Source: Cliona cf. orientalis (lineage: Eukaryota; Porifera; Demospongiae; Clionaida; Clionaidae). From it: a stretch of DNA of 64,000 bases. A program made the translations under genes and the position numbers. This document shows, piece after piece, positions 11,407 through 43,800 of the stretch. A model generated the notes under the pieces. It had not been told where the DNA came from, did not search any database, and saw only the letters and a program-made list of their open reading frames with translations. How positions within the stretch are numbered: the stretch's first letter is position 1; every line of letters begins with the position of its first letter. Where the stretch lies: positions 9,198,292 through 9,262,291 of the forward strand of contig OZ005697.1 of NCBI GenBank assembly GCA_963930775.1, read 5' to 3'.

Positions 11407-11544
11407 GTCTTGTCATGATGTATGTGCTCGTTTTTGCACCTAGCCTAGCCCCACCCTCTTATCCTCATGCGGCGCGCGCTGTGTGGCCGGCCAAATTGAT
11501 AACTTCGTCTTCTCAGAAACTAGAACGTAGCACATGTAGCAGCT
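11407..11544. promoter_or_regulatory. Divergent TTLL11/FAAH-A promoter region
   Basis: Only 138 bases separate the two start codons, so the promoters must be shared or overlapping. A GC-rich block, GCGGCGCGCGCTG, lies near 11469-11481. No TATA box is obvious. Confidence 0.45.
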
Positions 11545-13404: not shown

Positions 13405-13674
13405 CTACGCTCGTGCTGATAACAAAGTTTAGGCCAAAAAATTTAATTAGGAGATGATTCCCCTTTATACTTTTTTGTTTGGTCATTAAAGAAGATTTAT
13501 ATTTTTCCAACTATAAATAAGCATACACAATACATGTATTATATAGCTGCTAATATCATTAATTTGCTTCACGATTATACACTATTATTCAATAGACTAT
13601 TATTCTCTCTTTGGCAAATTAAAATTAATTTTGTAAAAATATCATGTACGACAAATCTCAGTTCTTTCCATGTT
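13405..13674. other. Convergent spacer between the two FAAH genes
   Basis: These 270 bases of AT-rich sequence hold both 3' ends. There are candidate poly(A) signals near the plus-strand gene (ATTAAA around 13485) and no coding sequence. Confidence 0.5.
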
Positions 13675-15606
13675 TCAAGGAGTAAGTTCAGCTGCTGTCT
13701 TGATCAGATCATAGAAGACTTGTGGCTTCCTAGCCGGAAACATCCCAGTCTTCTCGAGGGCATAGCCGATCTTGAGCAGCATCCCCTCCTTGTACCACTG
13801 ACCCATCACCTGTAGGCCAACAGGCAGACCGCCACTTGTGTACCCCACAGGAAGAACGAGACCGGGCAAGCCTGTTAGGTTGCCTAGGAAACTGAACCTC
13901 ATCAATTCGGTCGACTTGACAGAGTCTATGACACCATGAGAAATGTTGGCCGGGGAAATAGAGGGAGCAGGAATAGCAGTCGCTGGAGTAAGGATGGCAT
14001 CAATGTTCAATTCATTGAAGAAATATTTCATCACCTCGATTGCCCGTGTGCGCTGCTTTTGAGCATTGATGTACTCTATAGCTGAAACTGTATAGCCAAA
14101 AGAAAGAACAATGTGTGATTCGGGAATAATCTCGCTGAAATGTGTGTCGATGTCCTTTGCCAGTGCATTCACAAACTCCGACATGATCGAGATAGCATGA
14201 GCCACTCGGCAATCGTCCAGTTCAGGTATCGTAATGTCTACCACGGTGACACCAAGAGATTTGAGCTGGACAACAGCTAGCTTGCATTTCTCGACAATCT
14301 CAGGATCGGCATGCTCAAAGAACTTCCAATAGATGCCCACCCTCACCCCTTCGAGTTTTGTCTCCCCCACACCTTCAAGGGGTAGCAATTTCTTCTCTCC
14401 GTCAGTCTCTTTGGAGAGAATATCCATCGCAACGGCAGCATCTAGGATGGAGGCACAAAGAGGACCTGCACCAGATACAGTGTATGCTAGCGGCAATATT
14501 CCACGTGAATCCATGAACCGATTTGTCGGTTTGAGGCCCACTACTCCGCAAGTGGCAGCTGGAATGCGAATGGAACCACCACCGTCCGTACCAAGGGCAA
14601 TGGGGCAGAAACCAGCTGCCACACACACGGCCGACCCAGAGGAGCTTCCTCCCGGGTAACACTGTGGATTATAAGGGTTCCGAGCAGTGAGGTGATTCTT
14701 GTTTGGATTGGAACCTAATGTGCCGGCACCGAATTCTTGAAGATTGGCCACCCCAATGATCACAGCACCCGATGACGCAAGCTTCTCAACGAGTGCAGCC
14801 TCTGGAACACCATGGCCAAGCTGGGGAACAAACGATGCACCACCGTAAAAATCATAAGGCTCGACACGAAACTCCCCTTTGATTGCCACAGGTACACCAT
14901 CGAGTAAAGAGAGGGTTTTCCCTTCCTTCCATCGCTGGGTGGATGCGTTGGCCTGAGCCAGAACGACATCACGGCTGGTATCAATGATGGCTCTCAGAGG
15001 AGGGCTGGCTTTGTTGGAGTCCTCAATGGCATTCAGGACTGCCTCAGCTACCTCAGTTGGGCTACAGCGGCCAGACCTAAATGCTCCTACAAAGTCTGCC
15101 ACAGTGGGAAGATGAAAACCCCCTTTCTCACCGTCCACCTCCTTCTCCAGAAGCTTCTGGAGCAGCTCCTTGTTGGGTTGAGTCTGGTCCTCGGTTAGGG
15201 GTGGAGTTGCGGGTGTGGCATAGTAGGTTGGTTTTTCAGGGAGATATATACCTCCCATTCCATCCAAATTGCTGTTTCGTTTCATTCGAGGTCCCAAGAC
15301 TAGTTGCCCAAAGCGTGTATAGCAAAGCCAAGCGAAAAACCGAAGCTTTCTACCTGCCACTTTTGGCGCGTGCATGACTCCCAAGTCATATTTGATGTCA
15401 TCAAGGTTCTTGATGACCTCTTGTATCGGGGGACGAACTTCCCCAGGCCTCTTTCCCCCGCCACAGGCTGGCCTTCTAGTGAACCAGAAGCGCCATTTCA
15501 TCCAACCGGCCACTATCACAACAGCGCCAATGGTGGCAGCAGCCACGCCTACCATCACCATTGAAGGAGAAACGTTGGATAGCATGGCTCTCGATGTCTG
15601 AATCAT
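13675..15606 (-). CDS. FAAH: Fatty-acid amide hydrolase, copy B
   Basis: An uninterrupted 643-codon frame inverted relative to copy A, so the pair is tail to tail. It has a hydrophobic N-terminal segment (VGVAAATIGAVVIVAGW), then the same architecture: AIKGEFRVEPYDFYGG (catalytic Lys), GGSSSGSAVC (cis-Ser), GTDGGGSIRIP (nucleophile Ser) and a C terminus ending PQVFYDLIKTAAELTP. All three catalytic positions are intact, so both copies should be active. The N-terminal 130 residues differ from copy A, while the catalytic region holds long identical stretches. The start may be the first Met (15606) or the second (MLSNVS, 15585). It is head-to-head with ZZZ3, about 200 bases away. Like copy A it lacks introns, unlike almost every neighbour. 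Confidence 0.93.
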   Translation of the reverse strand: MIQTSRAMLSNVSPSMVMVGVAAATIGAVVIVAGWMKWRFWFTRRPACGGGKRPGEVRPPIQEVIKNLDDIKYDLGVMHAPKVAGRKLRFFAWLCYTRFGQLVLGPRMKRNSNLDGMGGIYLPEKPTYYATPATPPLTEDQTQPNKELLQKLLEKEVDGEKGGFHLPTVADFVGAFRSGRCSPTEVAEAVLNAIEDSNKASPPLRAIIDTSRDVVLAQANASTQRWKEGKTLSLLDGVPVAIKGEFRVEPYDFYGGASFVPQLGHGVPEAALVEKLASSGAVIIGVANLQEFGAGTLGSNPNKNHLTARNPYNPQCYPGGSSSGSAVCVAAGFCPIALGTDGGGSIRIPAATCGVVGLKPTNRFMDSRGILPLAYTVSGAGPLCASILDAAVAMDILSKETDGEKKLLPLEGVGETKLEGVRVGIYWKFFEHADPEIVEKCKLAVVQLKSLGVTVVDITIPELDDCRVAHAISIMSEFVNALAKDIDTHFSEIIPESHIVLSFGYTVSAIEYINAQKQRTRAIEVMKYFFNELNIDAILTPATAIPAPSISPANISHGVIDSVKSTELMRFSFLGNLTGLPGLVLPVGYTSGGLPVGLQVMGQWYKEGMLLKIGYALEKTGMFPARKPQVFYDLIKTAAELTP

Positions 15607-15807
15607 TGATATAATATTATTATTATTATTAAATCATAATCAGCAAGATTCATTTCAACTAACCTGCAATACACAGGCGTTCTCTTCGAAGTGTTATTAT
15701 AAATGAACAGCTCAGCAAAATGTCGGAACAACGGAAGGTACTAAAAGAGCGCGCCGCACCAGCGCTTAATATGCCCCGCCCATTATCATCGCATCCGTCC
15801 GCGCCGC
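15607..15807. promoter_or_regulatory. Divergent FAAH-B/ZZZ3 promoter region
   Basis: There are 201 bases between the two start codons. A GC-rich block near 15748-15812 (several GCGC and CGCC words) lies on the ZZZ3 side and an ATTATT run on the FAAH side. No TATA box is obvious. Confidence 0.45.
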
Positions 15808-18800
15808 ATGGCAGGTCAAACATCAAACATGGATCCGAACCCACCACTTTGTAGTTCAACGCTGGCAAGCAGAGACGCAAACCCTTCCCAGTCCGCAAAG
15901 AGTCCCGGGGAGTTGGGAGGCACGACTAGTACGGCCATAGCTGGAGAAAAATCGGCTTTTGAATCGACTGGGGTCGAACCTCTAGCTCAGAGTGTCAAGA
16001 GAGAGGAGGGGGAAAGTGATGTAATTAGTCAAGATGATGAAGGGAGCCAGGGTGAAGCTGACATGGACATTTGTGAGGAATCAGAAGATGCGGAGGAGTG
16101 GAGTGAGACAAAGGATGGGATAGTGAAAGAGGAGACAGGTGGAATGGAACCAGGACCGATAGCTAGTGAAATTCCAATTCCATCCAAGCTGCAACGGTTC
16201 TATTTTGAATCGGACACACTTGCTCTCAAGAATAACCCAGAGTAAGAATGTGTATACCACCTTAGTTTGCTATTTGCCACTTAAGATTAAAAGATAACAA
16301 ATTGCAAGAATACCATATTTAAATTTACAACACATGATCTAATTAGTGTAAGAAAATTCGCGTTCTATTTTCATAGTGTATCTGGAGTGCGTGACGACCT
16401 TTACCAGAAAATTACAAAATCGTAATTATTTTTTTAACTTGCGTTCTATTAGCATAAACACAGTACATGACATACAAAATACATTTATTATCCAGCTACC
16501 AAAAGCTACTGAAGACACTGGCAATCTTGGAAGCACAGAAGATGCAAGCTATTCGAGTAAATGCAACCACCAACCACTACTTTGAATTGACTTTTAAATT
16601 ATTTTTTTTTTGTCTTCTTGTCCAGGATTTGGAGATGTTAGTTCAAGCTCAGGCCAAAGCTGAGAAAGACCCTCTTACCTTTGTAGAGGCTCTGAAAAAT
16701 GGAGTAAGCACGTAAAAAATATGCACTATTTGTCACTGAAAAACTGATACCGAGACACGTGCACACGCATTAGACTTTAGAGCCGTTACCAAGGAGACAG
16801 CGCGTGATGGATCTCCCAGATATCGAGTGGAAAGGGTACATTGAGAGTTTACAGCAGGTTGCCAAGCAACACACGTCTCTCTACAAGACTAGGCGCCATA
16901 ATACTGGTAGTAAACCATTGATATTTGAACTGGACGAAAAGCCTGTGAGTTTGGAAAAACTCAACGCCCAGACAGCTCTGAGGTGTGAATTACATTCCTC
17001 CCTGTCTCTTTCTCTCTCAGTCTACCAGTATCAAGCCGAAGGATCCCAACAAGCCAGCCTCTTACCGCCAACCTTGGACACCAGAAGAACAGGTTATCAA
17101 ATTCTCTTTATTGTAACTAAAGGATTAAAATTAATTTTCAAAAGGGTGGGTGGGATGATGGGGCTGAAATCTGATACTGTAGTACCGTAGACTCTGGTTA
17201 ATAAGCGCATGCGCTTATAGCGGTAAACGGAATGACAGTATGTGCTTAATAAAGGATATGCGCTTATATGGCACATAACCACGCCCACCACTAGCGCTCG
17301 ATCGATCGATCGAGCACTTGAACGTTTACAGATGCCGCTCAAGATGACGAGTGCTGGAGATTTGTCGATCTTCTTGCATGATAACTTTATTCGTGGCCAT
17401 CATTTCTCCAAAGATAGCTGGACTCCAAATACTTTCCAGCCGGTCAAGGTCAGGTTCACGCCTATTAAGTGCATGCGCTTAATAAACAATAGCTTATGAC
17501 AAGAAGAGGGCGTTAATAGCGAGGTGCGCTTAATAACCAGAGTTTACGGTATTTAATTTTGTGTAATATTGTAGGCCAAATTTGAAGAGCTGCTTAAAAT
17601 TTACCCGCCTGAGGCCGTTGAGAGAAAGAGGTACCAGAAGATAGCCAAGGCCATGGGCACGAGGACAACCCAGCAGGTTGCCACCCACGTCCAGAAGTAC
17701 TTCATCAAGCTGGCCAACGCTGGCCTGCCAGTGCCCGGGAGGATGCCTAACATGGCTAGGTACTCAAGGAGCAAGAAGGTATGCGCTTTTCCATGCAGGA
17801 GTGAGTACCCATCCTGAAGATTACTCACATTACTGCAAATTGCACACTCACATGAAAAGAGTGATATACCGAGGCAGAGGGTGGCTGTTTAACATTTTAT
17901 ATATCACTTTCGTAGTTAAATTTGAATAGGATGATAGGTACTAGGTGGTGGTGCATATTATGTAATCGTCATTCAATTAGAGTGGGTATGAGAGGTGCAT
18001 GCGTGTACTGGGGGATCTATGTGGTGTGGTGTGTGTAACTATCCAAGAGTTTTATTGTGATTACTCTCTGAATTTGTTCCTTCCTTTATCCTGTAGCAGA
18101 AAGGAGAGATGCTGTGCATGTACGTGTATGATAGTATGTGTAGTACATGACTGGGGTTGTAGGATTACTACAAAATGCAAAACAACATTATGGAGTGATT
18201 TTTGCTTGTCATCCTACACCACGCTGCATACATACTATATAGTATACAGTCTTATGGTTGCCTGTACTCCACGCATTGTATATCGTAACTAGGGCAAAGG
18301 AAAGCGTGGCGGTCTACGACGACCTTCGACCTTCTTCACGTCCCTAATGCCCAATGTGTTCATGACGGAAGAGAGCAGTAGTTCCACTCCGGGTACGTCC
18401 AAGAGTGGCTCCCCCAGCGTCGAAGGATCGTACTATGAAGGCTCCTCGGTAAGTATAGGGGTTTTCAAGGTGGCGGGGGCGGGGGGGGGGGGGGGGCATT
18501 ATGGAGTTCCCCCTTAAATCTCAATTCAAAGTTTCATTGTGATACTGCACCAAAACAAATTAAATTTTACCTCTCATTTCTGTTTAGGATGAAGATAGTG
18601 AGACATCTGAGATTCTTGGTGATATGATGGAGGGTGATTCTGGGTCATCTTCACCTCACCTTGTTGTAAAGGTGAGCCCACAGCGATCATTGACTAGGTT
18701 GCTAGGCCAACCACATGAGCCTACATACATGTACATGTATAGCCTCCTCCCCATGTCCTGTATCAGTGGCGGATCCAGGATTTGTGATAGGAGGGGGCAC

Positions 18801-19870: not shown

Positions 19871-20288
19871 CTATGATACATGTAATGCACAAAATTAATC
19901 ATCATTATCATGCTAGAGTTAAATTTTTCTACAAAAATAATATTATGCAACCACATGCAACACCGAAACCCGATGCATGCCGCATAATTAGATCTTGTGG
20001 TAGAAAGTCGTTGCGATTATTACTAAACTGATTCTGTTTTGATGGATGACCTCGAACCACACGTACGACGGAAACCAATGGCATCTATTAGTAGTACCGG
20101 TAGTATAATATATATGCAGCGCATACTGTACTATTGACACACGTGTAGCCCCCAAAACGCAGGTATGTTAGCTGGAATGTTTGTGTGAGTAGTCGGGGCA
20201 GCTGCCATGCCAAGGATCCTTTTGAGGTACATCACTCAGCGCTCCAGGTACCGTAAGAGGTCGAGTACTTATAAACTGCTCCGATAAA
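19871..20288. other. Spacer between ZZZ3 and the fucosyltransferase-like gene
   Basis: These 418 bases should hold the ZZZ3 3' end and the promoter of the next gene, in the same orientation. I see no coding exon or RNA gene. Confidence 0.45.
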
Positions 20289-25000: not shown

Positions 25001-25762
25001 ATGTTAATTAAGTAGACTAGCACCAGCCATCGATGGCTCTCCTTACACTGGACCTTAAAATTGATTTAGTGTCAGTCCAGCAGAGTGCCATGGAGTCAAA
25101 TAGCTGAACATAAGGTTATAAAGTTAGCGATCAATAAAAACATGCTTGCACAAGTGAATTACCATGCCATGACATGCAGGCTTCTCATCTCATTCCTCTC
25201 TTCCATATTGATGCGGGGAATGTCCATTGTCCACTATTAGGTTATTTATTCGCCAGCTCTAGTTAAGGGAAGGCCCATAGAAATGTCGTTGACCGTGTTA
25301 CATGCGTATACATTGAGCACGGCTGCATAAGTTAAAACCGCTACGTTTTAATACGTGGAGAGTCAGCTTGGTGCAATTCTTAGGAATGGTTCACACGTTT
25401 GCCAAACTTGGGTGTCCAAGAGTGGCATGGCATGCAACCAACAGAGAGATGCCATATAGGAGACATATCACAAATCAACAAATAATTGGAGCTGGTATGG
25501 GCCTACTTAAACCCCCGGCTAGCGGGCATTCCTCAGTCTGTGCTAGATGCCAGTTTCAGAACAAGCCAAGTTGGAGGACTGACTGACTACCAGAGCTGTG
25601 TGTGCATCTTCAGACGTGACTGGTTCAAGTTGTCTTTACAAAAACAGTGCACCGCATTTGTTATCATTCTACCCTATCTTCAGCTAGCTGCGCTTCGAGC
25701 TTCCTTTCCTACGAAGTTTCTGACGTCACTTTGTCTTTTGCGGTCAACAGCTGTGCAAAGCA
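22029..25762. other. Gene-poor 3.7 kb upstream of GPSM2
   Basis: AT-rich sequence with many CATGCATG, TGCATG and TAATAATATTATTA words and one perfect hairpin at 22886-22927. Short open frames occur on both strands, but none has a protein-like composition or usable splice sites that join to another. It may hold the GPSM2 promoter and 5' UTR near the right end (a GC-richer stretch at about 25680-25760). Confidence 0.5.
22886..22927. repeat. Perfect 19-bp hairpin, TCAAGGGCTTA family
   Basis: tcaagggcttatagacccc is followed by a four-base loop (cttt) and its exact reverse complement ggggtctataagcccttga. The outer 11 bases equal those of the hairpin at 8360-8410. Confidence 0.85.
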
Positions 25763-28700
25763 ATGAATAACGGTAGCGGTGTAAATAGTGTAGGCGTTGC
25801 AGCAAGCGCTGCACTAGCACTGACTACAAGTACCACCTCCAAACTCCAAAGGCGCCCCAGTTTGAAGTTTCGTATGTCATTCAGAACCAAGAAAACAAGA
25901 CAAGCAATGGTTGAGAGAACGTGCAACGAACTTGCGCTCGAGGGAGAGCGACTATGCAAAGAGGGAAGATGGTCAGAGGGAGTGGAGAGACTGGAATCGG
26001 CCGCCAGAGCTGGAACGCAAGATCTGAAGACGCTCAGCGCTCTGTACAGCCAGCTTGGCAACGCTTACTTTTACCTGGAGAACTACAGCAAGTCACTGGA
26101 GTACCACAAGCAAGATCTGACGCTTGCAAGAACGCTCAGCGACAAGCTGGGAGAGGCCAAAGCGTGTGGAAACATTGGCAGCGCTCTGAAGGCGCTCGGG
26201 CAGTTTGACGAGTCCGTGGCTTGCTGTAGGATGCAACTCGATATTGCTCGGGAGATTAGTGACAAGGTGAGTGTCATGTTGTAGTAAGCAGTGGCATACG
26301 TTTCCCATAGTGCAGTCTACACACTGTGCATGTTGTTGGCAGAGTGCGCAGGTGTACGCTGAGATAATGTCATTTGAGCGGGCTGAATCCAGGCTGGTTG
26401 CTATGGAGTATATAGAGTGGTGTGCCTTTGTGGGTTTCTTGCTGAGCGTACCAACGTAAACTCCTCAAAGCTGGATAGTGAGGGAGATACACACACTAAT
26501 GAAAGACGATCCACCAGAGTGTGGCTTGTTTATGATCGGGATGGCTGGATGCATGGAAGGTGGAGAGAGGGAGGGGAGAGGGAGAAAGCTGATCTGACTG
26601 ATCTAGCTGCTTTGCTGGCAATGTTGAACAATACGTTACTCCAATGACCGTGCACGTGGTGTGGTATGTGAGTGTGTGAATCATATTTTGCCGACGGAGC
26701 CCTGAGCAGCTAAGGGCATGTACTCGATACCTTGACATGTACTGCTCTTTGATCTTTGTTCGATTCGGTAGTCATGTGACTAAAACACATTGCGCAACAC
26801 GCATGATCATCGGTGCAGAGCAGAGGGCACCTGAATTTCCGCCTGGTGCATGCAATATCACTGTATAATACACATTACGTCGGCTCGCCTTAGTCCCTTG
26901 CAAATCATGCGCTAATGCGTGGAAGGAACATGCACTGTACGTACAGCATGTATTCATCACTAGCAACATGCTAGTTGATAGGTACACAGGTAGCTAGTCA
27001 GTGAAGAGGCTCTGTCACGTACATGCACCTGCCCATCATAATAATACTGATAATAGTGCACATTGAAAGTTTGCTGTACCGTATAACGTCAGTAGTTTTA
27101 AGTCTAAAGTACGCTTGTAGTGCGTCACTTTGTGAAACCACGCATTGGAGGATACTCTCCTGTGATCCTTGAAGTGAAGGTAGCCCTTCAGTGAGGTGCT
27201 TTCAGCACTTTGCTCCAAACTTATGCAATATCAATGTGTTTGTATACACTCGGTGACTAGTGGTTACAGTTAGGGACTGTATACATTGAGGCGTCCTCTG
27301 CTTGCGCCTCAGGATCTCATCATCTTATGACGTAATTATGATGTAATTAGTATTGTTACTGTAAATAAATAGTGCATTCAGCTATACAGCTATCCCATCC
27401 CTAGCTACTGCATACAACAGCACAGCTGCAACCACAAGCAAAGGATAAGTAATGCTAGCATGAGCATACTCTCTATACACGAGTGGGCTAGGTAGAGAGA
27501 AAAAACAACAAAGAATTTGGCCGATCAATAGGCGACGGCTACGCAGGCACAATTTATACAGTTTGCACCGCAATTGATATGGTCTGTTGTTGTCACATGC
27601 TCAGTAGTTGGCCCATGCTACTGGCCCTGTTAGTTCTAGGGAGTACCAATTAGTACTCTGTGGGTGCATACACAATGACAATTGTACCAGGCCCCAAGTA
27701 GCTGTGTAGTTGGAGAGGGAAACACAAAAACAGTGGTAGATCAACACAAGGTGATAATGTTTGTGGGGCACCACCATGTATCAGTACCCACTTACTATAC
27801 TGCATACAGTGTGCATGTCTGTGTGGATGAAGAAGGGTGGCTGGCCAGCTCAGTTGGCATTCGCAGCAGCAGCGTGAGGTTTTGTTGACTGGATTCACAA
27901 AAATGAGGAGCAGTTGTTGTTTATTTTACTACATATACATGTACATGTACTTGTAGTGTTGTGTACAAGCATGTAGGTGCCCATGTTCAAGCTATAGCGC
28001 TCTAGCGCTAGTACTCTACTGGTCTCTATGAATGTACATATTATGTACATGAGGTCTTGTAGACATGCAGCTGTGGCTTGTACTTGTATATACAGTGCTA
28101 GTGTACAGGTTGGTGCAGAATCCTTTGTACCTATACAATCGAACCAGAATCGTGCAAATGTCTGCAGCAAGCTTGGCTTGGCTAGGCTAGCTCTATGGCG
28201 CCTTGCATGGCATGGCATTCAAGCAATGTGTGCAGCTGATAAATAAGGCTAAATGCAGCGCTAGCTAGCTAGGTAGCGACACATACCCTAGTCAGAACAA
28301 TGCCCCCTCGCCAGACAAAGTTCTCTGTCTCTCTTTCTCTTTGCACCCCAGCTGCAGGGCTGGTTGACCAGCAGCTAGAGCTAGCTGGGTGCTAAATCGC
28401 ATAATTTGCACTAATCCACAGATGAACATTGAGTCGGAGATGATCTAATGGAATTAAAAGTGGCTGCATTAAGTGCTAACTGTGGAATAGAAGGGCCTTG
28501 TTCCCTTTTATCCATATCCTCTGAAGATCACCTGCAGACAGTACATTATTATCAATTGTTATAAATCATCTTCTGTCCAGCACAAACATGTGCTTTGAAT
28601 TGGCTCAGGTTTTATAATGGCAAATGCACCATGGGATACCTACAGTTTGCTCAATGGCTGTTTTCTTGCAATAGGTACTTGGTTGCTTGCTTTGCTCTCA

Positions 28701-31700
28701 TTCGATCTATAGTGTCTGGATAAACGTTTATATTTTGTGTCACGCACCGTGCAGCATTAACTGTAAATTCTACAACATTTTCAACATTCACCGGGCATGG
28801 GTTAATTCCTCTACCTTTCCCACATCAGTTATCATTGACTGTAATAATAATAATAACACTCTATCAGTGTTTGCAGCGTGTAACTATAACAGTGAAGCGG
28901 CACAGTAGTGGGATAGTCTAAATACTGAGAAATTGTAGTATGCTAACAGAAGGTCACTGACAAACAAACTCACTGTCTTCCCAAACAGATAAACAAAATG
29001 TGTTTTGCTTTCCGTGACTCAAAAGAGCTTAAACTATCAATATATAGCTTTTGCTTTCCTTCAAAAAAGTACGTGACTTCAATCTACATGAACAATAAAC
29101 GGTTGCCATGGCAGCGCTCACATGAGCAGCTAAGCACACAGAATGCACTCTTTTGTGCAATTGGGTACTTTCTCCACTAGCTTTAGCCTTTAAAGTTTGT
29201 TTTTTTTATGGAAATTTGTCTAATCAGTGTTGATGCGAGAGGCGCCTTGATAGGCCGTGACATGATCTCAAATTGCCAGCAGAGTTAGATCATGGTGGAA
29301 ATTTAATTGCAAAGCATGCAGCGATAAGCACGGTAATGTCCTTTGTGAACTTAACTGTGAGAAGTGATACTGATTGGACCGCCAGTGTTGGATGTTGTCA
29401 AGAATGCAAGCACTTGTATTACCCTAATTGGTAGATCAGGTAGACGTGCACGCGTGCAAATATTTAAATTATGGATATTCACACTCACTCACATTCTCTC
29501 ACTCTCTCTCTGTCTCTCTCTTTCTCTCTCTCCCTCTCTCTCTTAGGTGCTTGAAAGTCGAGCACTGTATAATCTTGGCAACGTCTACCACGCCAGAGGG
29601 AAGAGCACCAGCACCGTGGGACTGGCCAGCAATATCGAGCAACAAGACGCCGAGGAGAGCGTGAAGACATCTCTGATTCAGGCAGCCAGACACTACGAGT
29701 AAGTGCAAGCATATCATAAAATTTAATGAAACGTGAGTACAGAGACCGATTCAGGGCGTCTTACCACAATTAATGCATTGGTGAGGTGCTTGCTACCCAT
29801 GAAAACTCGTGTTGAAATGTAACATAATATTAATTAATATCACTCGCCACACACACTCTACATTGGAGAGCAAAGTGATATAGATACCTTTTTTGCTATT
29901 AGCTGGATCAAATAATGATATGCAATTAGGACGTCAGAGTGAACTGTGGAGTGGTTGCTGTTAATGCATATGCTGTTAGGTACCAGGCTCTCTGTCTCCT
30001 CACCAAAGTGGTAACCTTATAGCATCTGATCAAACGTGTGGTGGCAGGGAGAGAGAGAGTGAGTGAGTAAATAAATTTTTTATCGACCACACCAATATGT
30101 AGCTACATGCATGGCTCTTGTGTTTCCTTCAATCACACCTATCACCCAAAGCAGCTCGTGTCATGGAAACAAGAAAAAAATTTTTTTTCGGCAGAGCGTC
30201 TGTCTGTCCTCCACCCTTGTCTGGCTCTCTCTCTCCCTCACACACCATAGAATCGCCACTACAGCTAGCTAGCTAGCTAGCTGGTGTTACCCATATCCCC
30301 TTTAGACACCTAGTCTCTCCTGTAATAATTAGCGTGAGTACACTACCAGCAAGTGAATTGAACACTTCCTCTCCATCAGCAGACTTGTTGACCACTTAGG
30401 CCATTGTCAGTGAGGAAGCCTGGGCTGTAAAAACAACCCCCATTTTCCCAAAATTACCAGCTATATAGTTAAGTACATGTGTGTAGAGGGAGATGTAGAC
30501 CAGCTGGACTCCAAAAGGAGGAAATATTAGTGGCTGGCAAAGTACACTGTTACAGTGCAGCTACCCTAGTCTACTAGGTTCTGGTTCAGCTGCTTGTCAA
30601 AGGAGAAACAAAGCCATGGCAGGAAGAGGGTCAGGGTCTTGGGGCTCTACTGGTAGGAAGAGGGTTCAAACCCTTCCCTCTCCCAGTCTTTATCTTCAGG
30701 CAGAATGATAGCTACAAAGCAGCTGGGCTATTAATGGGGAATTCAGTACCTACCTGGGGTTTAGGCAGTTTGAGGGAGAGAAACAATAAAATAGCAGGAA
30801 GAGGGTCATCTACATGATGTTCTAGCCTGCAAGTCCGACTGGGAGGAAGGGGGCTGCCATTAATTGAATATTACTTGGAAAAGCAGCACTATAGCCAGCT
30901 AGACTGGAAGTCTATAATGTACCTTATTATACAATGTTTTAATAAGGTGGCATTAAATCGATAGAGTTGCAGGTGGGGGTGGGGGGGAGTAGCTTATACG
31001 CAGGGTAGAGGGGGTGAAATCACGTTTAGATGAAGACTATAAAGAGAAAATAGTAGTGATGTTAGCTAAATCATAGAGCTTCTGATGCAGCACAGATGTG
31101 CCGGCTTGATCCAGCTAGCTAGCTAGGCAGGTATGACATTGTATACCCTATAACATTCCTATAATAATTACGTAGCCTTGCAGCCTGCAGGTGTGCTCAC
31201 TTTGCTGAAATTTGATTACATAGATCAGCAGTATAATTGTGCTGTGTTGTTATGTACTTACATAAGCCACCCATACATGTGCCTGTGTGAGGTGATGGTC
31301 TCTGCTCTGCATTAGCTGTTCATGATGCAGAGGTTTTGAGGTAGCATTCTTGATCAGTCAAGGAGCAAGGGTGTGGGATTAGGTACAGGCTCTAATTAAC
31401 CACTGAAAATTCAATATTGCACACCCAAAAATGCATTAACAAATTTCCAGCTCACACATAATTTTTAGTCTTAAATTCCATACCTGAGATGGTAATTTTG
31501 AAGATTGTGAAAGATAAGCCTCCACATTTCCTGTATTTGCAAACAATTAGGATATACAATTGTACACATTTTTAAATGTGGTCGTAGGATGATTAACTAA
31601 AGCTATTAATTTTATGATACTGTTGTGTGGATACTTGTAGATTAGCATCATGCAGAGTATCATATACTCTCATACCATGTCTCACTCCACTCCACCCCCA

Positions 31701-34700
31701 GTGAAGCACCTGGTGCATTAGGTTGACAGGATATACTCCCTTAGATCAAAGGAAACCTTCCTTTGATCTCCATTGTGATGCGTATACATTCAATAGCTAA
31801 AGCTAGCACAGTACATAGTGGCCTGGCCTGGCCGGCCTATACAAATCATGTACATGCACCTAACACAAACACTGATGAACCCTGTATATAGCTAGCTAGC
31901 TAGGATGGCAGCTGCACTCTAGGTTTACATGAACCCCATACCGGCCTGTAAACCTTGTTTACCCTTGACATGTAGGCTCTTTGATGCTAGTCACTGTACA
32001 TGTACTCCAGCAGGTAGTTAGAAGAATACTATCTATAGCCTTAGATGACTTTAATGGCAGATCATTTCCTTTGAGCCCTCAGATTCCACCACGAGCATCA
32101 CATCCAGGGCAGGCATAGGGGATGTGGATGTATATATATACACGTACCAGGAAGTAAACTTTTATGATAAATGACGTTACACCGATAAGACTTCGCTCCC
32201 CTGGCCCTAGCAACCCTAGCAACCGTGGTGAGGTCTGTCTGTCAGATGTGGTCCCTGTGGCCTGATGTAAACATTCACATTAGGGGGTCATGTGCTTGGC
32301 ATTGAGGCTGGCAGGTAGTGTGATAAGGTGGCTTTTTCCCACAATTGTGGTCTCTCCGAGTGAGAGAGTGAGTGAGTGGGAGAGATAGAGAAAGGGAGAG
32401 ATAGGGGAGAGGGACAGAGTATATATATAGTCTGTATGTGACCAGAGAAGCACTTGAATGAAACCCAAGCATGGGAAGAACTCATGAAAATGAGCGTGAC
32501 CTTCTTTGGGAGATTGTCTGCAGCCAGACAGATCCGGTTAGGCTCAGCCCCCTATACCATAGCTACATTGTGTGTATGTATGCACACGTGTGTGTGTGTG
32601 TATGTGTGTGAGAATGTATGTGTGTCTGTGGACTCGCCCACCACAACTTGCTTGGTTGTGTAGATTCACAAGCCGCCCGCCTGCTGCCTGCCTACGTAGG
32701 TATCTCCTTCTGACTGACTGGATTAGGATGGAATCAGCAATGTCATGTGCTGTAGGCAGCTGCTTCCATTCCTGTGAGTAGTACATGCATGTATTAACAT
32801 TGTGTACACCGACTCACATAACTTACACTCAAAATCTAATAATGGACGTTACATACCTAGCGATGAATGAAGGCTGAAACACTGCATACACACATCAATG
32901 TTAATTTCCATTACTACTACTCTACTGCACTGTCCATCAATTGCTGTTGAAGAAACTCATACGTAGTATATACCACTCACATGTAACTTGCAACCCATAC
33001 ACTTGCACTGTAGAGCCTGAGGGGGCACGAGCTAAAATTACATTAATTTTACTATAGTTTATAAATATTATTATATAATTCTACTGAGGCTGTCTAATTG
33101 ACAGCTCATCCATACACATAATTATCCACACATCGGAAGTCTTTTGAGTCCGCATGTAGTGATACAAGTGTCTCCGTAGCAACAACAGTACTTCCTTCTC
33201 GGCCGAACGACGACAGCCCGTGCCGTGAGTGAATGAGTGTGTGTACGTGTGTGCTCAATGAGACATGAAGGGATTCGTGTTCACTGTTACTAGTACTCAT
33301 GTGTGTTCTAGGCATAGTACGGTCTCCATGGCTACAGCTAGGTCTTCTATTATACAAAGAGTTGTGTTGTATAGTGCATAGGTATAATAATATTAATTTT
33401 CTATAATAATAATATTATACTCGAGACTGTGTGGGCGAGTATAAAAGTAGTGTGAGTGTAGGTGTGATCTAGTGATGCATTTATGTGTGTGTGGGGGTGG
33501 ATGTGTGAGTGTGTGTGGGTGGATGGTGCAGGTGTATGTGTGAGTGTATCACTATTGTTTGTCTCCTCGACTGAACCTACATCGGAGGTCGTGGGAAAAT
33601 GAAGCTCTTTAGCCTTCCTCTCGCTATTAATAATTCATTATTAACTGCTACTAAACCTGTAGCCTTCCACTCACTGACTTACTATTAACTGCTACTCAAC
33701 TATGTAACTTATGGTCAGCCAGCTAGCAGCGGTCACGAATACACACATGCATGAAAATTCAGTAGGTTTATCTTCTACTACCAATCCAAACCTAAGGGGA
33801 AAACCATCTCACTGCCTGCTCAGGCAAACCTAATTTAAGCAAAAGGCAGAGCCACATAGGTGCCTAGCCTTGAGAACTAGGGGTGGTAGGTTGAAAAGCT
33901 CTTTTGTTCCATGGAAACTCTCCCTACCCACCTAAGTGGCTCATGGACACGGGCAGCATGCATATATGACCATAATTACGCATTCAGGGAAATTAACAGA
34001 ATCTCCAGTCAGTATTGTTACTAGCTACTACATAATTTTGTAGGGGTGCATGACCAAAATGTCGGAAAACAAGTCACAAAAGAAACAAACATCAACATGA
34101 CTATATAAATTATACGTAGTATACTATACCTACCTACCAAGGTAGTATTCTATTGTAGTATACTAGTTTTGGTCATGCCGGTTAGTTATTAGATAGCAAT
34201 AAAATTCTCTAACAAGGTCCTTATGTCCATGACTACGACAATCTCACACGCTATTTTAGGAAAGTGTGCAACCGTGCACTGTGAGATGATAGCAACAACT
34301 ATTTCTCAATTAAGTAGTGAAGACGATCATTAAGCTCACAACATGCATGCATGCTGTAGCTGGGGTCAGCAACTATTTCTCGATCAGATAATCATTACAC
34401 TTAGCTGTTGTAGCTGGGGTAAGCACAACTATTCATCAAAACTGGTGAAGAAATGTGAAGATGTACATGCTATGGTTTGGCTATGTTTACGGTGCTAAAA
34501 GGGTGTGTATGGAACTGAATTAGCCAACCAATCAGTCAAATTAGCTTTTACTTTATTCAAATTTACAGCGAGTTTCTTTATTCTGGGATACCCATAATAA
34601 TATTATTATGTGTGTGCACTATTGAAATAAATGTCAAGCCTTTTATGGAAGAAAATATTCAATTATATCATATGCATGACACAATCAAATATTTGACATG

Positions 34701-37700
34701 AGAAAATCCTAGTGTATGGTAGATAGTTGCTCATACACTAGTATATCTTTCTTTTTGCAGGGCAAATTTGAAGATCGTAAAGGAGCTAGGAGACTACCAA
34801 GCACAGGGCAGGACGCTCGGTAACCTTGGCAACACCTACTACTTGCTGGGAAACTACAAGAAGGCCATTAAGTTTCACGAAGAGGTGAGCTGTACAGAAC
34901 CATGTAGCATACAGTCAGCCAGCTAGCAAATACATGTATGCATGACCAAAATGTCGGGAAACAAGTCCCAAAAAACATGACTGTATAGGTATTAGTGTGT
35001 ACACGACCGATGGTGAGTGGGAAATAGCAATTTGCTTCGTTTTAAGAAATTAATGTTTGCACTTTGATCCACCTTTTTTGATAGTCATTAACTCTCTCTC
35101 TCTCTTCCTCTTTCATGTACTACAGAGATTATCAGTAGCTGAGCTGCTAGGGGACAAGGTGGCATGTCGAAGAGCCTACAGTAACCTTGGCAACGCTCAG
35201 ATGTTCCTTGGAAAGTACACAGCAGCTGCACAATACTACCTGTAAGTTTTCGTACGTGAAAGGCTACAAGTGTCACCGTAACCCCCATCAATAGCGACTC
35301 CTCAGGGAAACCATCCCATCAGTATACATCTAGACAGATGCCTATATTAGCCTTGAAAACTAAGACATACTATTATCACGGACGTAGGAATGGAATAGTT
35401 GTAGCTAGCTATGATAATATTATGAAATTTCTATTCAACTGTTTACGTGAGCTGTTTCACAGCTGGCTTGGATCTTGTGTCAGTTTTGAAAGGGAGCCTT
35501 GTGCAAACTTTGGCCGGGAGTGGGGTATCTTTGCAGAGGAGTGGAGGTTTTGACAAGCAAGCTTTTCACTAACAATCACATTTGAACAGTCACGTTCCAT
35601 ACACACACACAAATATGTATACCGTATCATTGGCAAATATCATGCTGGTAGCTATTCAGCGTATTTGTCCCTCAAGAGCTAGCTCCTTGGATAAGGAAGT
35701 AGCCAACTTGTATCAATAAAATTGACTCCTCTTGTTTCTCCTTCTCCCCCACACACGCAGACACGCATTGGAGGTGGCGAGAGAGGTCGGTGACATCGCC
35801 GTGGAAGCCCAGTCGTGCTACAGCCTCGGGAACACCTACACCCTCATACAGAACTATCACAAGGCCATCGAGTTTCACATGAGACATCTGCAGTTTGCCG
35901 TACGATTGGACGATAGGTGAGCAATCAGTCGAGGCATGAGACACACACACACACACACACGCGGACACACACACGGACAGACCGTCTCCACTGATAGACA
36001 GATGGAGATGGGTGGGTGGGGGAGGCCGGGAGGAACGAGAATAACCCAATTAATGAATTAATTAATTGAATTCATTAGGCCTAATCTTAATTGAGTACAG
36101 GTGGTCGACCCGGCCTGTCGGGTAGTTTTCTGATCTGATAGCGGCGAGAGAACTTTTGATTCTATCAAATTGCAAAGAGTTTGTGGCAACACGCGCATTA
36201 ATTTTAGCATATCTTCACTAACAACATTATTAGACTAATTTGCATGGCATAGACATGCATAGCTTGGTAGATTTAGCTGATAGCACACTCCTCTGTAGAA
36301 TTAGCTGCTTACTTTGATAGCCAACAGGTGTAATTGCATCACAAGAGAGTACGTGATAAATGCTTATACGATATTTTGTCATCAGCATATTTATCTTCCC
36401 TCCATGCATAATACTGTACATCCGCAGTCACATGATAATCACATGACTAACCCCTCCCTCCCTCCCCATTGTATGTTATATACACAGGATTGGAGAGGCC
36501 CGTGCCTACTGGAGTCTCGGTAACAGTTACTCGGCTCTCGGAGACCACAGACAGGCGCGCCACTTCGCCAACAAACACCTCCAGCTGTCCATCCAGCTCG
36601 GGGACGAGGAGGGAATAGAGACGGCCAAGAGAAATCTGGCTGACCTCGACAGCGTTTTGGAGCTGAGCAACAAGTAAGTGCTCTGTTCTTATCTCTATAC
36701 CAGTGTCCACCCCCTCCCATCCCCAGGAAATTTCTTTAAAATACCAATTTTGCAGTGCTCTAAAAACCAACTGTGCCTAAGTAGGGCATTCAGGGCATTG
36801 GGGTACTTTGTCTATCTAGGGGTAGTTGTAAAAGGAGAGCTTTCAAGTCAAAGGATAGAAGAATAAGCTCTTACAAAACTAGCCACTGCATACTTTAGGG
36901 GACACACTGTGTATCTTAGAAATAGATGCAAACAATCATGGAGGTTTGGTTTGGGCTAACACAAATACAAAATGTACACTACCTCAAGTAGCACTATAGT
37001 TACAAATGTATTGTACATCTCTGGTTGCCGAGGGAGTGAGAATGAGCAAATACCATAAGGAACATTTTCCCCTTGTCCTTTTGAGCAAAGTCTGGTAGTC
37101 TTTTGTGTCCATTTGTCAGAGTGTAATGGACAATAGAGGTCTTGAGATGCCTAAAGCAAAAGTTATTAGTTCGTTCAATCGGAAGTTGTAGGTTAGTCTA
37201 AGTGGGAGAATAATTAGCTTGGGATTGCTACCCTTTGACACACATTGGAATTGAACTGCCAGCTGATTGTCTCAGGTGGGGAGTTGTACTAGCAAGGGTG
37301 GGACAGGTAATTGGCTCCGAAATTGAGTGTGTACATGTACACATACATGCAGAGGAATGCTAGTTGATGGTGCATCTACTGCATGCAATATTAAAACATT
37401 TTGTGGATTATGTATGATGTCATGACCATTTGCAGACCCTTCCCAGCTAATATTATGGTATGGGATGCTAAAAATAGGAAAGCTGTGACTATTATTATTT
37501 CCCCACAGGTATGAGTGCCCCTCCCCCTCACCACGCCTCTCTTCCATCTCCAATGGGTCGTTCCACCTGCAAAATGGTGAGCCCGCATACTATAGTAGCC
37601 TACGTTAGCGACGACCCCTTACCGATCAATAAGATACAATAGTTGGTATAGGACGTTAGAAAAACAAGTAACTTTATATTTGTTCACATACATATACACA

Positions 37701-40532
37701 CAGCTCCAATGGGGAAGAAGCGATTCCATGTTCCTCTCCGTAAGAAGCTTAGCAGTTACAGCCTCAAGTCAGAGAGCAGTACTGTTAGTCTCAAGGTACA
37801 TAAGTCAAAGTCAATATCAGTTTTTGTTGTTTTTTTTCAAAGTAAATAGTCTAAGGGCATAAAAAAATATTTTCTGGACCCAGCCATACCAATACAGGTA
37901 TTTTGAAAACATGCATGGCCTCCAACCATGTCTGCACTATTAGTGCATTTGATTTTCTTCAACCAAGTCTGCATTTTTAGCAATTCCATCCAAATTTTCC
38001 CCTCTAGAACCGCTCACCTCGTGACTCTCGTGCTGGCTCCTCTGGTACTGTCTCTCCCACCAGTTCTCTCGCCTCGTCCCACGACGACTCTCCCTTCATC
38101 GCCAGCTCCAACACAGCAGCCACCAACACCAGACGAGTGAGTTAACAGAATACGAAATAATTGGTAAAGATCGTCATGTTAACATGCTGTAAAGCGCGCG
38201 CAATTTTTGCGCATGCGTAGTGATGGTGCACGGTCATTGCGTGGGTGTGGCTTTCGAACTTTCTCGGTATTTTCGGATAAATCGGGTCGATATTTACGGT
38301 ATGTCCCGGCAGCCTTCGACTTCTTATTGAGATCGCGCAGTGGCTCTCGAACAAAAACAGAAGCTGTTTTGTCGTTGAAACTGTCCAGAAGCGAAGAGGG
38401 AGAGAGCCTAGAAAACTACCATGGACTGCTTAATATTCACACGAAACTCCTCTTACTCCAGTCTTCGCTCTGGACTCGTAAGTTGACTATTTCGCTCACG
38501 CTTTGCGCGAATAGAGTCACAAACACGGACTAGTGGCTATCTAGCGAGGTAGCCTAGTGGGGTTAATACTTTGCTGGCTTGTTTCCCCAGCCTGTCTTAC
38601 AGTAAAGGAGGCTATTTATCGCGTTTTCAGCGCAGCACTTCATTCTGAAATTTGTTGTGGTGGACAACAGTTCACTTTGTGATGACTTTGGCTTTCAATG
38701 TTCGCCCATAAACAAACACTCCATGCATGGCTTTATCAGCTAAGCAATATTGAGCCTCTCTCTCTTTTCTCTTCTTCAATCACAGGAAGAGCACTTACCA
38801 GTGGACGATGGATTTCTCGACATGATCTCAAAGAGCCAGAGCCGTCGTTTGGACGACCAGAGAAGTGCATTTCCAGATTCTGCCGCCAACACCCCAGAAG
38901 AGGCCCGCCACCTCACACAGGGTGGCCGCTGCGAAGAAGAAGACCTGTTCGACACACTCTGGCGTCTCCAGGGTTCGAGAATTGATGACCAACGTTGCGA
39001 TATGCCCTCTCCGGCAAATGGCCTGTCACACCACCACGGAGTGGACGACCAGGAGAGGTGGGAAGAGGGAGAGGCAGAGTGCTTATCCAGCGACGAACTG
39101 TTCGATATGATCTTCGAGTGCCAGGTATGCTCAGTTCGGGATATTATTGTGTATAATATGTATTGCACCTTTTTGTGTGGAATGGTATTTTAAAAACTTT
39201 CTTTCTTGACATTTTTTCACCATTTATCATCAATTATGAAATTGAATCCTTTCCCTCCTAGACTGTTTCTTAACATAGTATTAACTTTTCCCCACTACAT
39301 TTTACGTCACGTTTGGTGGACACCTAGCCTTTCAGACTCTCTGAGAACAAAGTACTTGCCTAGCCTTCCCCTCGGGGCAATTACTCCACCTTTGAAATGG
39401 CCAAGTACGTGTACTATTTTTTTTTTGTACTATGAGCTAGCTTTGGTCACACGCATATAAAGGAGGGCCTGGCATCTTTCGTTGGTTGTGTGTGGCACAA
39501 TTAGCATCTGTACGTGTTAAGTTGTGGACGACTTGTTTCGTTTGCACTTCAAAGCGTAAACACTTGTGTATGCAATCACAGCGTTGCGGTGACGATTCCT
39601 GCTAATTGTGTTTTCTCTCATGTTTCGTGTCTTTGGCAAATGGCTGTTACAAAACCTGACCACCCCTCTGTTCCGTAATATGTAGACTACACCACTGTAG
39701 GCACATAAGCTCTCCCTCCCTTCCTTTGTTAGCTGTAGCTGACAAAGTTTATACCAGTTCTGTGACCTCTTGGCCAAAGGCCTCTTCTGTGACAGAGTTT
39801 GTAGCAATGTGTGAGGGGAAGGAGGAAGGAGGGAGGAGGGAGGGAGGGGGAAGAGGAGTGAGTGAGAGAGAGATGCAGGTACACATGTGTGCAATAACCC
39901 GATATCCCCACCATGTCAATTTTGTGGTGCTGATTATGTAATCGATTGGATGAAAGGGCGTGTGCCACGTGTAAGATGTGAAACTGTACACCCAATATAA
40001 TGTGTCCATGATAGACTGGAGCTGTGGTAGAAGCTGCTCCCAAGTGTATATCCAGACGGAAAGAGGGAGGGAGGGGAGGGGGTATAAGGTGACTTTAGAC
40101 ATGTTCTCCATTTCAAAGCCTACTGGACCATGTGATGTCTGACTTGCCATTCCAACCCTATAGCCTAGGGGCATTGTCTACAATACTACTACAGTGGTGG
40201 TAGTGTATATAGCTATAGCTTGGCTGGCTCTGTACCCTGCCTCCCCACAGCTGTTTGTGTGGTGTAGACGAAACATGGTATCATATCAAGCAAAGAGAGT
40301 CAGAGCTTGTAGGATGTACCTCTCTTGTTTATGAGGCCATGCTATAGCTGTAGTACAATGTCGTTGATTTGGCGATGTTGATTTAGCAGCGGTGTGAATG
40401 GTATTAGTGGGACCTTGTGTGTTTGTTTATTTTTGTGTGCATGTTTTGTGTGGTCAGCACTGGTATTGTTGTCAAGGGGCGCTCAAAGACTAAACAGTAG
40501 CAGTTTAGGGCATGTAAATGGTGACAATTGAG

Positions 40533-40575
<43 letters not shown>

Positions 40576-40831
40576 TAGTTGGAATTCCATGTATTGTTCT
40601 CTACTACCTACCTTGTCATTTCATGCCACTTACTTTGTACCAACCCACACACACTCTCTCTCCTTCCTACTACAGAGTTCACGGATTAACGACCAGAGGT
40701 CACCAGACCCCAGGACGCTAGTCTCGAGAAAGAGCACAATGCCCAGCGAAGACTTTTTCAACCTAATTCAGCACCTTCAGTCGACGAGAATAGAAGACCA
40801 GAGAAGCCCCCTCCCAGTCTTGGCCAACTGA
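25763..40831 (+). CDS. GPSM2: LGN/Pins (GPSM2/AGS3 family), TPR and GoLoco spindle-orientation protein
   Basis: Eleven exons (25763-26266, 29547-29698, 34761-34884, 35126-35241, 35761-35916, 36488-36673, 37509-37576, 37704-37795, 38008-38136, 38786-39124, 40676-40831) close in phase to 673 aa (human LGN 684). The N-terminal half is a TPR array; most repeats carry the LGN signature LGN.Y or LGNA: LYSQLGNAYFYLENY, ALYNLGNVYHARGK, LGNLGNTYYLLGNYKKAI, AYSNLGNAQMFLGKY, CYSLGNTYTLIQNYHKAIEF, YWSLGNSYSALGDH. A Ser-rich linker follows, then four GoLoco motifs: FLDMISKSQSRRLDDQRS, LFDTLWRLQGSRIDDQRC, LFDMIFECQ|SSRINDQRS (split by the last intron) and FFNLIQHLQSTRIEDQRS. In the family the TPRs bind NuMA/Mud or Inscuteable and each GoLoco binds a GDP-bound Galpha-i at the cortex, orienting the spindle. 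Introns 1 and 2 (3.3 and 5.1 kb) are far longer than any others here. Confidence 0.96.
26267..29546. other. GPSM2 intron 1
   Basis: 3.3 kb with no supportable gene on either strand. It ends in a long CT-rich tract (about 29487-29544) that forms the polypyrimidine tract of the exon 2 acceptor. GCTAGC and TGCATG words are frequent. Confidence 0.6.
31743..31769. repeat. Perfect 12-bp hairpin with 3-base loop
   Basis: agatcaaaggaa, loop acc, then ttcctttgatct, in GPSM2 intron 2. Confidence 0.6.
33791..33834. repeat. Dispersed repeat fragment, inverted copy of 61574-61617
   Basis: CCTAAGGGGAAAACCATCTC followed by ACTGCCTGCTCAGGCAAACC matches the reverse complement of the SCFD2 intron segment with few mismatches; the core TGCCTGCTCAGGCAAACCTA is identical. 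Confidence 0.6.
38165..38477 (+). promoter_or_regulatory. Candidate internal promoter and alternative first exon of GPSM2
   Basis: Inside intron 9 a CpG-rich patch (GCGCGCGC, GCGCATGCG near 38195-38216) stands out from AT-rich surroundings. Downstream, at 38421, an ATG in strong context (ACCATGG) opens 19 codons (MDCLIFTRNSSYSSLRSGL) ending at a perfect donor, CTC|GTAAGT (38477/38478). The exon ends in phase 0, and the next constitutive exon (38786) starts in phase 0 with the first GoLoco. Splicing would yield a protein of about 183 aa with all four GoLoco motifs and no TPRs. Computational suggestion only. Confidence 0.4.
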
Positions 40832-43800
40832 GAGAGACGGGTGCCTCTTTAATCAGTGCTAATCATCATTCATAATAAGGTGTGTGTTATGTAAATGTAC
40901 CTAAAAAATACAATTTCCTGGATTTTAAGGAGTAGGGTTTGTGTGTAGATATATGAGATAGTGAGCTAGCTCAATGTCAGAGAATTTAGAATCATTTTAT
41001 AGATAGTAGCCTTAGACCCTGGGCAGTGCAACTTGGCTACAATTGGGTTATTGATTTTGCTCTTTGGTGTTTGCAAATTGTGGTTGGTTCAATTTGGCTT
41101 GGGTGCCCAGTGCTACATGGAGTATAGACACTATTGGCCAGGTCGAGCCTGGCTGGGGCAGGCATACTGCAGTGTCACGCCTTGTGCTATTAAAATTTTT
41201 CTATACTACTATAATAATATTATAGGCAGGCTGAGTATATATAGCATGGTAGTGATATCACGAAACCATCTATGTGGAAATGGGATAGGAACTCGCTTCA
41301 ATTTCGTAGTATCAACAAGAATGCCTGGCGTGCCAGTTTAGAGCTGGGCCATTAGACAAACTATACCACAGAGCCCTTGACATCATCACCTCACAGCTAG
41401 CTGTCTGGCTCTGTTATGACACAATGTGTACTTTTAATACTAATTGTGTCTACTTAGTAGGTAATTACTTATGCCTTGATGTACGAAGTACGAAATTGGA
41501 TATTTACGATGTTTATTTTTCTCTCTCTCTCTTCCCATCACTCACTATCTACAGATTCAGAAATTGCACATTTCAAGTATCCCATAAACTATTGATAGTT
41601 ATTGAACACAAATTGCACTTGAATGGAAACTGTGAAGCGAGATTTCACAAAACTGTCCATTTTTTCACACTTGTATGTACTCATGTGTATGCGTCATCAA
41701 GGGCATGTGATACCCACAGACCTGTGCCATTGTTGCATACAATCAGCTGTTGTATTTTTGTCATAATATTATTGTCACCAGAGTCTTGTGTCTGTTATTT
41801 CACATTCAGTCATTGTCAAGAATTATTTTTTTATTTAGTCGTGTACGTATGTACATTGTAAACCTGTTGTACTCCGTGTATTGGTCATTTCTGCCTCAAT
41901 CATTGTTCATTCAATAATATTATCCTACTAATTACTGCCAATTGAGCTATAAACGGGATTGCTATAAAAAGTGGTGCAGCTAGGGCATGTCGGCTAGCTA
42001 TAGCCACCCCTCTCAAGAGGGAGCTAATATACATGCACGACTGTAGATGCTTGGTTGACGTCCACATGCTCTCAAAATTCATGAGTACTGTGGTTGAGCC
42101 AGAGGCTCTATAGCTAATTACAGAGCAGCTGTGGCCTATTGGCAAAAAAACGTAGTGCATGCCTGTTCAATCTTGGTGAGCATGTTTGGGAAAGGATACC
42201 TGCCATACATGCATACAGAGGGTACACATAAACACATACATACAGACCAAGGCAGCTTTAGCACTATAGAAATACCCATACAAGGTAAAGTTGAAGCTGT
42301 ATACACACTGTGCAGTGCTATCGATAACCCATTGTGTACAAGCTATATAAGCAACTGGCATGTGCATTATGCATGTGTGTACCCCTAGCTGGTTCCCCCT
42401 TCTCAGGTTTTCCCTGTGGATTCCTGTGGCCATCATCCTCCATAGATAGCCCTCCTGACCTCAACCCCACTTCCTGCCACAGCTCCCCCTATGGTACACA
42501 GCTGCCTATTAATCTCATCTCTCAACAAGCTAAAGGTATGTACATAATATAGTAGCCAGCTCCTTCCTTATTTAGTGAGACTCCTTAACTTAGGTGGCCT
42601 CCTAATGCATTTCCTTTCTGGAAGAGAGAGAGAGAAGTACAAGTATACACAATATAAGTTAATGGGAGTATTGTGTCAAGGTAGGAGGAGGATAGGATTA
42701 AATGGGTCGAGTGCCATTATTGTTGACTCTCAAATTTCACCTGTGGAATGTGGAACTATTCACGATGTACCCCATCCCCCATTTAATGTTTACTTCCCCC
42801 ACTGTACATCTCTCTCTCTCTCTATCTCTCCCTCCTCTCTTCCTTCCCCTTCCCATATTATTGTTTGTGGTAGAGCCTTTTGGCTGACTAGGCCAGTGAG
42901 GTCAACGACCACCACAATACTGATATATCAACACCAGGCTATGTAGCTGTCCCTTTCAATACCATTTTTGGCCTATTATGGCGAAACTCTGTCCATCTAC
43001 CACCAATCGATGAAAACAAGACCACAGCTGCACATGTAGACAGTTACATCAAGAGCACATGACATGTTGATGGGTGTACAAAGGTATTATTAGCTAGGTC
43101 CAGGCGCTACATACACACCAGGTGCTCCTGGTTATGCCAACCCTTCTCCACTTTCCTGCATCACTCCTCCCTCTCTTTGTGGAATAGGAGTGAGATAAAT
43201 TACATCACCAGACAATGCAATAGACGCTGGATTGTTTACATGGAGTCACCTGATGGAACGTTTCTGAGGTTGAAAAACGTTGGTCTCATGGCGAGACCCT
43301 TCCCCCGGCTTTTTAGTGCTGCACCCTGTGAAAAAAAATTTCCCCTTGGGGTACGAAAGCTAGAATCCACAAAAAGATACCTCCCTATACACATGCTTGG
43401 CTAAGTAGAACCATTCAAAATTCAATCAGGAAGAATTAAGGACCTTCCACCAAAATAGACATTTCTGTCTAAAAATAGCAACAATTGTTCCTTGGGAGAG
43501 AGAGAGCCTTCTGGCCATGGTGTGGTAGACTCTTTAGCTAGAGAGCCTCCAGCCATTGTGTGGTAGAAGATATATAGTATTGGGGAGGCCCCTGGTCATT
43601 GTGTGGTAGACAATAGTATTGGTGTGGATGGGTGTTTGGGGACTTGGAGGTTTTGAGACTGAAAGAGTGACAGGTATCATTGAATTTGTGGCCACATTGT
43701 TTTGCACTGAGGAGGGAAACTGGCAGTAGCTGACAGGATGTGTGAAGGGAGGGAGGGAGAGATAGGGAAGAAATAAAAATAATATTCATCTGTGATAGCC

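Follow-up and report, generated by a model that had tools for sequence, protein, structure and literature searches.

A TPR-less short form of a GPSM protein is a known kind, to which the sponge case considered here would add if true. The closest known counterpart is AGS3-SHORT, reportedly described by Pizzinat in 2001 as a TPR-less form of mammalian GPSM1 (AGS3) in heart; it is said to comprise 166 aa with three GoLocos and to begin at a Met inside the long form. The term 'AGS3-SHORT' was not found in the literature that we searched. GPSM3/AGS4 and PCP2 are small GoLoco-only proteins acting on Galpha-i/o, and these are encoded by separate genes, in contrast to the isoform of a TPR-GoLoco gene that is predicted here.

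According to passages of PMC10115442, the TPR part of GPSM proteins folds onto the GoLoco part, Galpha-i-GDP opens this fold, and GoLoco binding inhibits GDP release; according to the same passages, LGN TPRs are captured in pull-downs with the GoLoco region of AGS3. For the sponge Amphimedon queenslandica, a portion of PMC8576264 describes an LGN annotation (XP_019856151.1) with TPRs, lacking linker and GoLocos, and a GoLoco-only model (XP_003389018.1; NW_003546593.1) that lies 3769 bases beyond the TPR model. The GoLoco part of a sponge LGN stands there as its own gene model, although the authors treated the two models as one gene and merged them. The Amphimedon split could stem from faulty annotation or reflect an equivalent GoLoco-only second unit of LGN, and it is our best lead that a division between TPRs and GoLocos recurs. 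At the level of search listings, the literature on internal or alternative promoters of GPSM1/GPSM2 and on alternative promoters of Amphimedon yielded no GoLoco-only LGN in a sponge.

The LGN gene and its GoLoco array

The window, a 64-kb stretch of Cliona cf. orientalis DNA (contig C9, 9198292-9262291), was analysed together with the genome of 216.8 Mb in 149 contigs. Its plus strand carries an LGN/GPSM2 orthologue (25763..40832), for which 11 coding exons were joined computationally into an open frame of 673 aa. Exons 1-6 lie at 25763-26266, 29547-29698, 34761-34884, 35126-35241, 35761-35916, and 36488-36673, and exons 7-11 at 37509-37576, 37704-37795, 38008-38136, 38786-39124, and 40676-40831 (stop included). 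Exon boundaries were placed by hand, and AG and GT are present at every internal boundary. Exon 1 matches human GPSM2 chain 6hc2_A with an E of 1.3e-80 and Drosophila Pins 4a1s_A with an E of 5.9e-67, while the GoLoco region matches the GPSM2 GoLoco chain 4jhr_A with an E of 1.7e-06. With GPSM2-like N-terminal TPRs and a C-terminal GoLoco array, the gene belongs to the LGN/AGS3 (GPSM1/2) family.

The GoLoco array is confined to the last two coding exons. Exon 10 (38786..39124, plus strand) contains GoLoco 1 (38807-38872), GoLoco 2 (38939-39001), and the start of GoLoco 3 (from 39089), and exon 11 (40676..40831, plus strand) contains the remainder of GoLoco 3, GoLoco 4 (40748-40813), and the stop. 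When all six frames of the genome were scanned with the GoLoco profile (E up to 0.1), three places were returned, all in LGN (38807-40813); the intron-split GoLoco 3 escaped this search, so other split GoLoco motifs could escape it too. Relatives of exon 10 were also sought in two sequence collections that are poor in animal DNA. In genome_contigs, 99 pattern matches were obtained and none was confirmed, and in viral_contigs there was no pattern match.

The CpG-dense patch of intron 9

Intron 9 (38137..38785, plus strand) is a phase 0 intron of 649 bp that is single copy genome-wide. As a sequence-only reading of this DNA had claimed, it contains a CpG-rich patch, which we delimit at 38165..38480 and regard as a candidate internal promoter. 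The densest part, 38165-38300, has 14 CpG and an observed/expected (o/e) ratio of 2.03, compared with 0.53 for the whole window, where TpG and CpA are raised, as in a methylated genome. A count of 14 CpG was reached by 0.08% of 20,000 mononucleotide shuffles. In 136-bp windows the patch and a peak at 7305, which sits in a repeat, have the highest CpG o/e of the 64 kb. The patch itself matched the genome at one place, even with E raised to 10, which rules out a recent mobile element.

The same copy-number test revealed 7190-7600 and 17110-17500 to be repeats. It was applied to 7 of the 15 CpG peaks of the window. Six strong clusters, defined by at least 15 CpG in 200 bp together with an o/e of at least 1.3, are present: one in amidase coding sequence, two in repeats, two at ORF starts, and the intron 9 patch. 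The two other strongest non-coding peaks away from ORF starts are the repeats at 7190-7600 (at least 40 long matches including itself, among 455 candidates) and 17110-17500 (at least 40 long matches including itself, among 936 candidates). Both peaks at ORF starts are single copy; one (15620-15985) lies between a minus-strand amidase frame (ATG 15606) and a plus-strand frame (ATG 15808), and the other (261-900) surrounds a plus-strand frame with its first ATG at 740 and no Pfam match. A lower, single-copy peak at 19900-20220 closely precedes a 600-codon frame (first ATG 20289). A rule that a single-copy CpG peak equals a start was nevertheless not upheld, as LGN intron 1 also harbours a single-copy peak (26700-26980), weaker at an o/e of up to 1.12, with no known start.

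The surroundings of these peaks can be described further. A Skp1-like first exon follows the 7190-7600 repeat at a distance of ~1 kb; the repeat was probably active recently, given that several of its copies are 97-100% identical. The 17110-17500 repeat is intronic, placed between exons of a Myb-domain gene that we take to be ZZZ3-like; its many copies are 78-95% alike, and it carries the palindrome GCGCATGCGC. At 11524-15633, two amidase-family genes, presumably FAAH-like, lie on opposite strands with their 3' ends facing, and nearly all of the coding sequence of each is in one exon.

CpG enrichment was then compared with gene starts elsewhere in the genome. The N-termini of 30 Ras-family genes were examined, of which three lacked a P-loop in place and three lacked an ATG, leaving 24, several of them with doubtful starts (e.g. 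L029, L040, L059, L061, L062). A 200-bp stretch with a CpG o/e of 1.2 or more was present within -1000..+100 at 11 of the 24 starts, against a background of 17% of 1.1-kb stretches of the window (binomial 0.001). At 5 of the 24, no 200-bp window reached 10 CpG, so CpG is not required for a start in this genome. CpG patches therefore mark many starts, not all. The first exon of LGN itself has no comparable peak (at 25200 and 25600, only 10 CpG in 200 bp with an o/e close to 1).

The patch also holds sites of transcription-factor type. We take TGCGCATGCGTA at 38208..38219 to be an NRF-1-type site, and the motifs at 38239 (GCGTGGGTG; 38239..38250) and, overlapping on the opposite strand, at 38243 to be of EGR type and CACC/KLF type, respectively. 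The three are grouped within 45 bp of the patch. The NRF-1 label was matched to text of PMC4773876, passages of which describe NRF-1, EGR, and KLF motif classes as enriched in Amphimedon promoters and CpG as raised at the TSS; the motif classes for this comparison were chosen after the patch had been seen.

Among the 24 Ras-family starts, five have an NRF-1-like site within -1000..+50 when one mismatch is allowed, and three of these sites match without mismatch. The distance from site to ATG is 213 bp in intron 9 and 87 to 407 bp at those Ras-family starts with a site within 450 bp. Genome-wide, the pattern TGCGCATGCGYR has 6092 forward and 5993 reverse matches, compared with 66 and 62 when the pattern is read backwards, which makes it ~90 times commoner than its reverse (12,085 vs 128 strand hits, with palindromic copies counting on both strands). 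The window has copies at 38208, 54274, and 57686, two of the three upstream of AMP-binding-type frames. Of 20 inspected loci, three overlap one another and share a repeat across the motif with a fourth, and the repeat at 17110-17500 carries a palindrome related to the motif. The NRF-1-like motif alone is therefore weak evidence, being very common and partly repeat-borne, and it was dropped as a stand-alone argument for a promoter.

A candidate first coding exon and its predicted product

Downstream of the CpG peak, intron 9 contains a candidate alternative first coding exon at 38421..38477 on the plus strand (MDCLIFTRNSSYSSLRSGL). Its ATG, in the context ACCATGG within ACTACCATGG, opens 57 nt (19 codons) that run to a GTAAGT donor in phase 0 (38478..38483). 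These features had been read from the sequence beforehand, and their coordinates proved exact on recheck. Intron 9 is bounded by phase 0 on both sides (exon 9 end 38136, exon 10 start 38786), and the claim that exon 10 begins in phase 0 with the first GoLoco agrees with the placement of GoLoco 1 given above. Joined to exon 10, the candidate exon gives an open frame through the phase 0 junction, 183 aa in length and without TPRs, with four PF02188 GoLoco stretches (E 1.1e-35); the four GoLocos and the lack of TPRs had been predicted. An in-frame TAG at 38409, 9 nt upstream of the ATG, closes the frame read from exon 9, and the stretch therefore cannot be an in-frame cassette exon. A 116-codon open frame at 38183-38533 was considered as a coding exon and set aside, having no Pfam family and no second genome copy.

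Other ATGs limit where transcription could begin. A 106-codon frame begins at ATG 38213 and runs across 38421 out of frame; further ATGs are at 38223 and 38301, and none lies between 38302 and 38420. A start would have to fall downstream of 38301, as translation would otherwise suffer. Neither AATAAA nor ATTAAA is present on either side within 520 bp of the patch, and with four donor types tested a donor was found downstream on the plus side only; together these lean weakly to the sense direction. No Rfam family was found in 37800-39200 at E up to 1 and no tRNA in the 64-kb window, and a known structured RNA or tRNA was dropped as an explanation.

In an effort to estimate how often such an arrangement arises by chance, we counted layouts consisting of a strong-context ATG, at least 5 codons in phase 0, and then a donor. 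In 4000 dinucleotide shuffles of intron 9, this layout appeared in 0.4% with GTAAGT, 0.6% with GTRAGT, and 2.4% with ten donors. The expectation per 649 bp, taken from both strands of the window, is 0.010, 0.025, and 0.086, respectively, and rises to 0.051, 0.183, and 0.695 if the ATG context is ignored. The strict GTRAGT layout has five cases on the two strands of the window, including the one in intron 9. One is in LGN exon 1 and ends at its true donor, those at 16807 and 58966 are both within long, unassigned plus-strand open frames, and that at 57491 is on the minus strand, upstream of an AMP-binding frame. With 64 kb read and five such layouts present, an occasional chance occurrence is expected and the layout alone is not decisive. 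The intron 9 case gains its weight from coinciding with a single-copy CpG patch.

The likeness to AGS3-SHORT is that of a TPR-less, GoLoco-bearing short form of a GPSM gene, in the sponge as a predicted transcript. The sequence-only reading had called the layout the same, which is inexact: the absence of TPRs and the presence of GoLocos stand, whereas the sponge prediction has four GoLocos and its own 19-residue N-terminus, compared with reportedly three GoLocos and an internal Met. The sponge gene is, moreover, a single-copy LGN/AGS3 orthologue, not GPSM1, of which AGS3-SHORT is a product.

Readings of the patch and their meaning

The sequence favours reading the patch as an internal promoter that comes with an alternative first coding exon, a plausible and partly supported interpretation. 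Four controls, namely copy number, the in-frame stop, the shuffles, and the comparison with gene starts, left it standing. We suggest that a CpG-type promoter in intron 9 would fire on the plus strand, with a start between about 38302 and 38415, which places it 80 to 200 bases past the NRF-1-like site. In the transcript, a short first exon holding its own start codon (38421) would be joined to exon 10 by splicing of 38477 to 38786, and translation would give a 183-aa protein with four GoLocos and no TPRs. Such a product could not adopt the TPR-bound closed state and would be permanently open, nor would it recruit NuMA-type partners through TPRs. Having no closed state, it would bind Galpha-i/o-GDP constantly and act as a GDI, competing with full-length LGN for Galpha at the cortex, and it might in addition engage LGN TPRs in trans through its GoLocos. 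We put the whole chain, from intron 9 promoter to a spliced GoLoco-only LGN product acting as a free Galpha-i/o GDI, at a little short of an even chance.

The patch could instead be an unmethylated intronic regulatory element, such as an enhancer or loop anchor that serves LGN or a gene nearby, with the downstream ATG and donor occurring by chance. CpG density and sites of NRF-1, EGR, and KLF type are as compatible with an enhancer as with a promoter, LGN intron 1 has a second and fainter single-copy CpG peak, and the layout odds of 0.4 to 2.4% per intron apply to a window that was widely searched. Against such an element, the layout starts within about 120 bp of the CpG peak and on the sense strand, and it combines strong context, the best donor, and the right phase. 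We consider this explanation somewhat unlikely. A patch without function, either a chance CpG-rich stretch of intron or an old, unrecognised mobile element, seems distinctly unlikely. It would accord with the mobile-element-like repeats that make up other intronic CpG peaks of the window and with the 116-codon frame that lacks a Pfam match; yet neither the patch, even at E up to 10, nor that frame has a second copy, and the CpGs of an old element would no longer be there in a genome depleted to 0.53.

The patch could also promote a non-coding or antisense transcript rather than a GoLoco-only mRNA. CpG promoters are often bidirectional, and the NRF-1 site is near-palindromic. Bidirectional promoters are apparently used by about a third of Amphimedon genes, as given in a passage of PMC4773876. 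The missing polyA hexamers and the donor on the plus side only lean instead to sense elongation, and the absence of Rfam families and tRNAs over the intervals searched also speaks against such a transcript, which we regard as improbable.

Returning to the internal promoter, a far broader version can be formulated, in which demosponges share a conserved second LGN promoter in the linker-to-GoLoco intron and the gene yields two products, an adaptor for the spindle and a free inhibitor of Galpha made of GoLocos. In Amphimedon, the split annotation would then be the same unit, LGN, as the only GoLoco gene detected, would be the free GoLoco source of the animal, and the animal TPR-GoLoco gene would have been dual-output early on. 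We hold this extension to be improbable. If the GoLoco-only product of intron 9 is real, a non-bilaterian animal would obtain a GoLoco protein free of TPRs from the one LGN gene it has, just as mammals obtain one from GPSM1. The roles of LGN in spindle orientation and in G-protein inhibition would be separated, and this in an animal in which the profile search (E up to 0.1) detected no other GoLoco gene. How old the short form is would then become testable through sponge 5'-end data.
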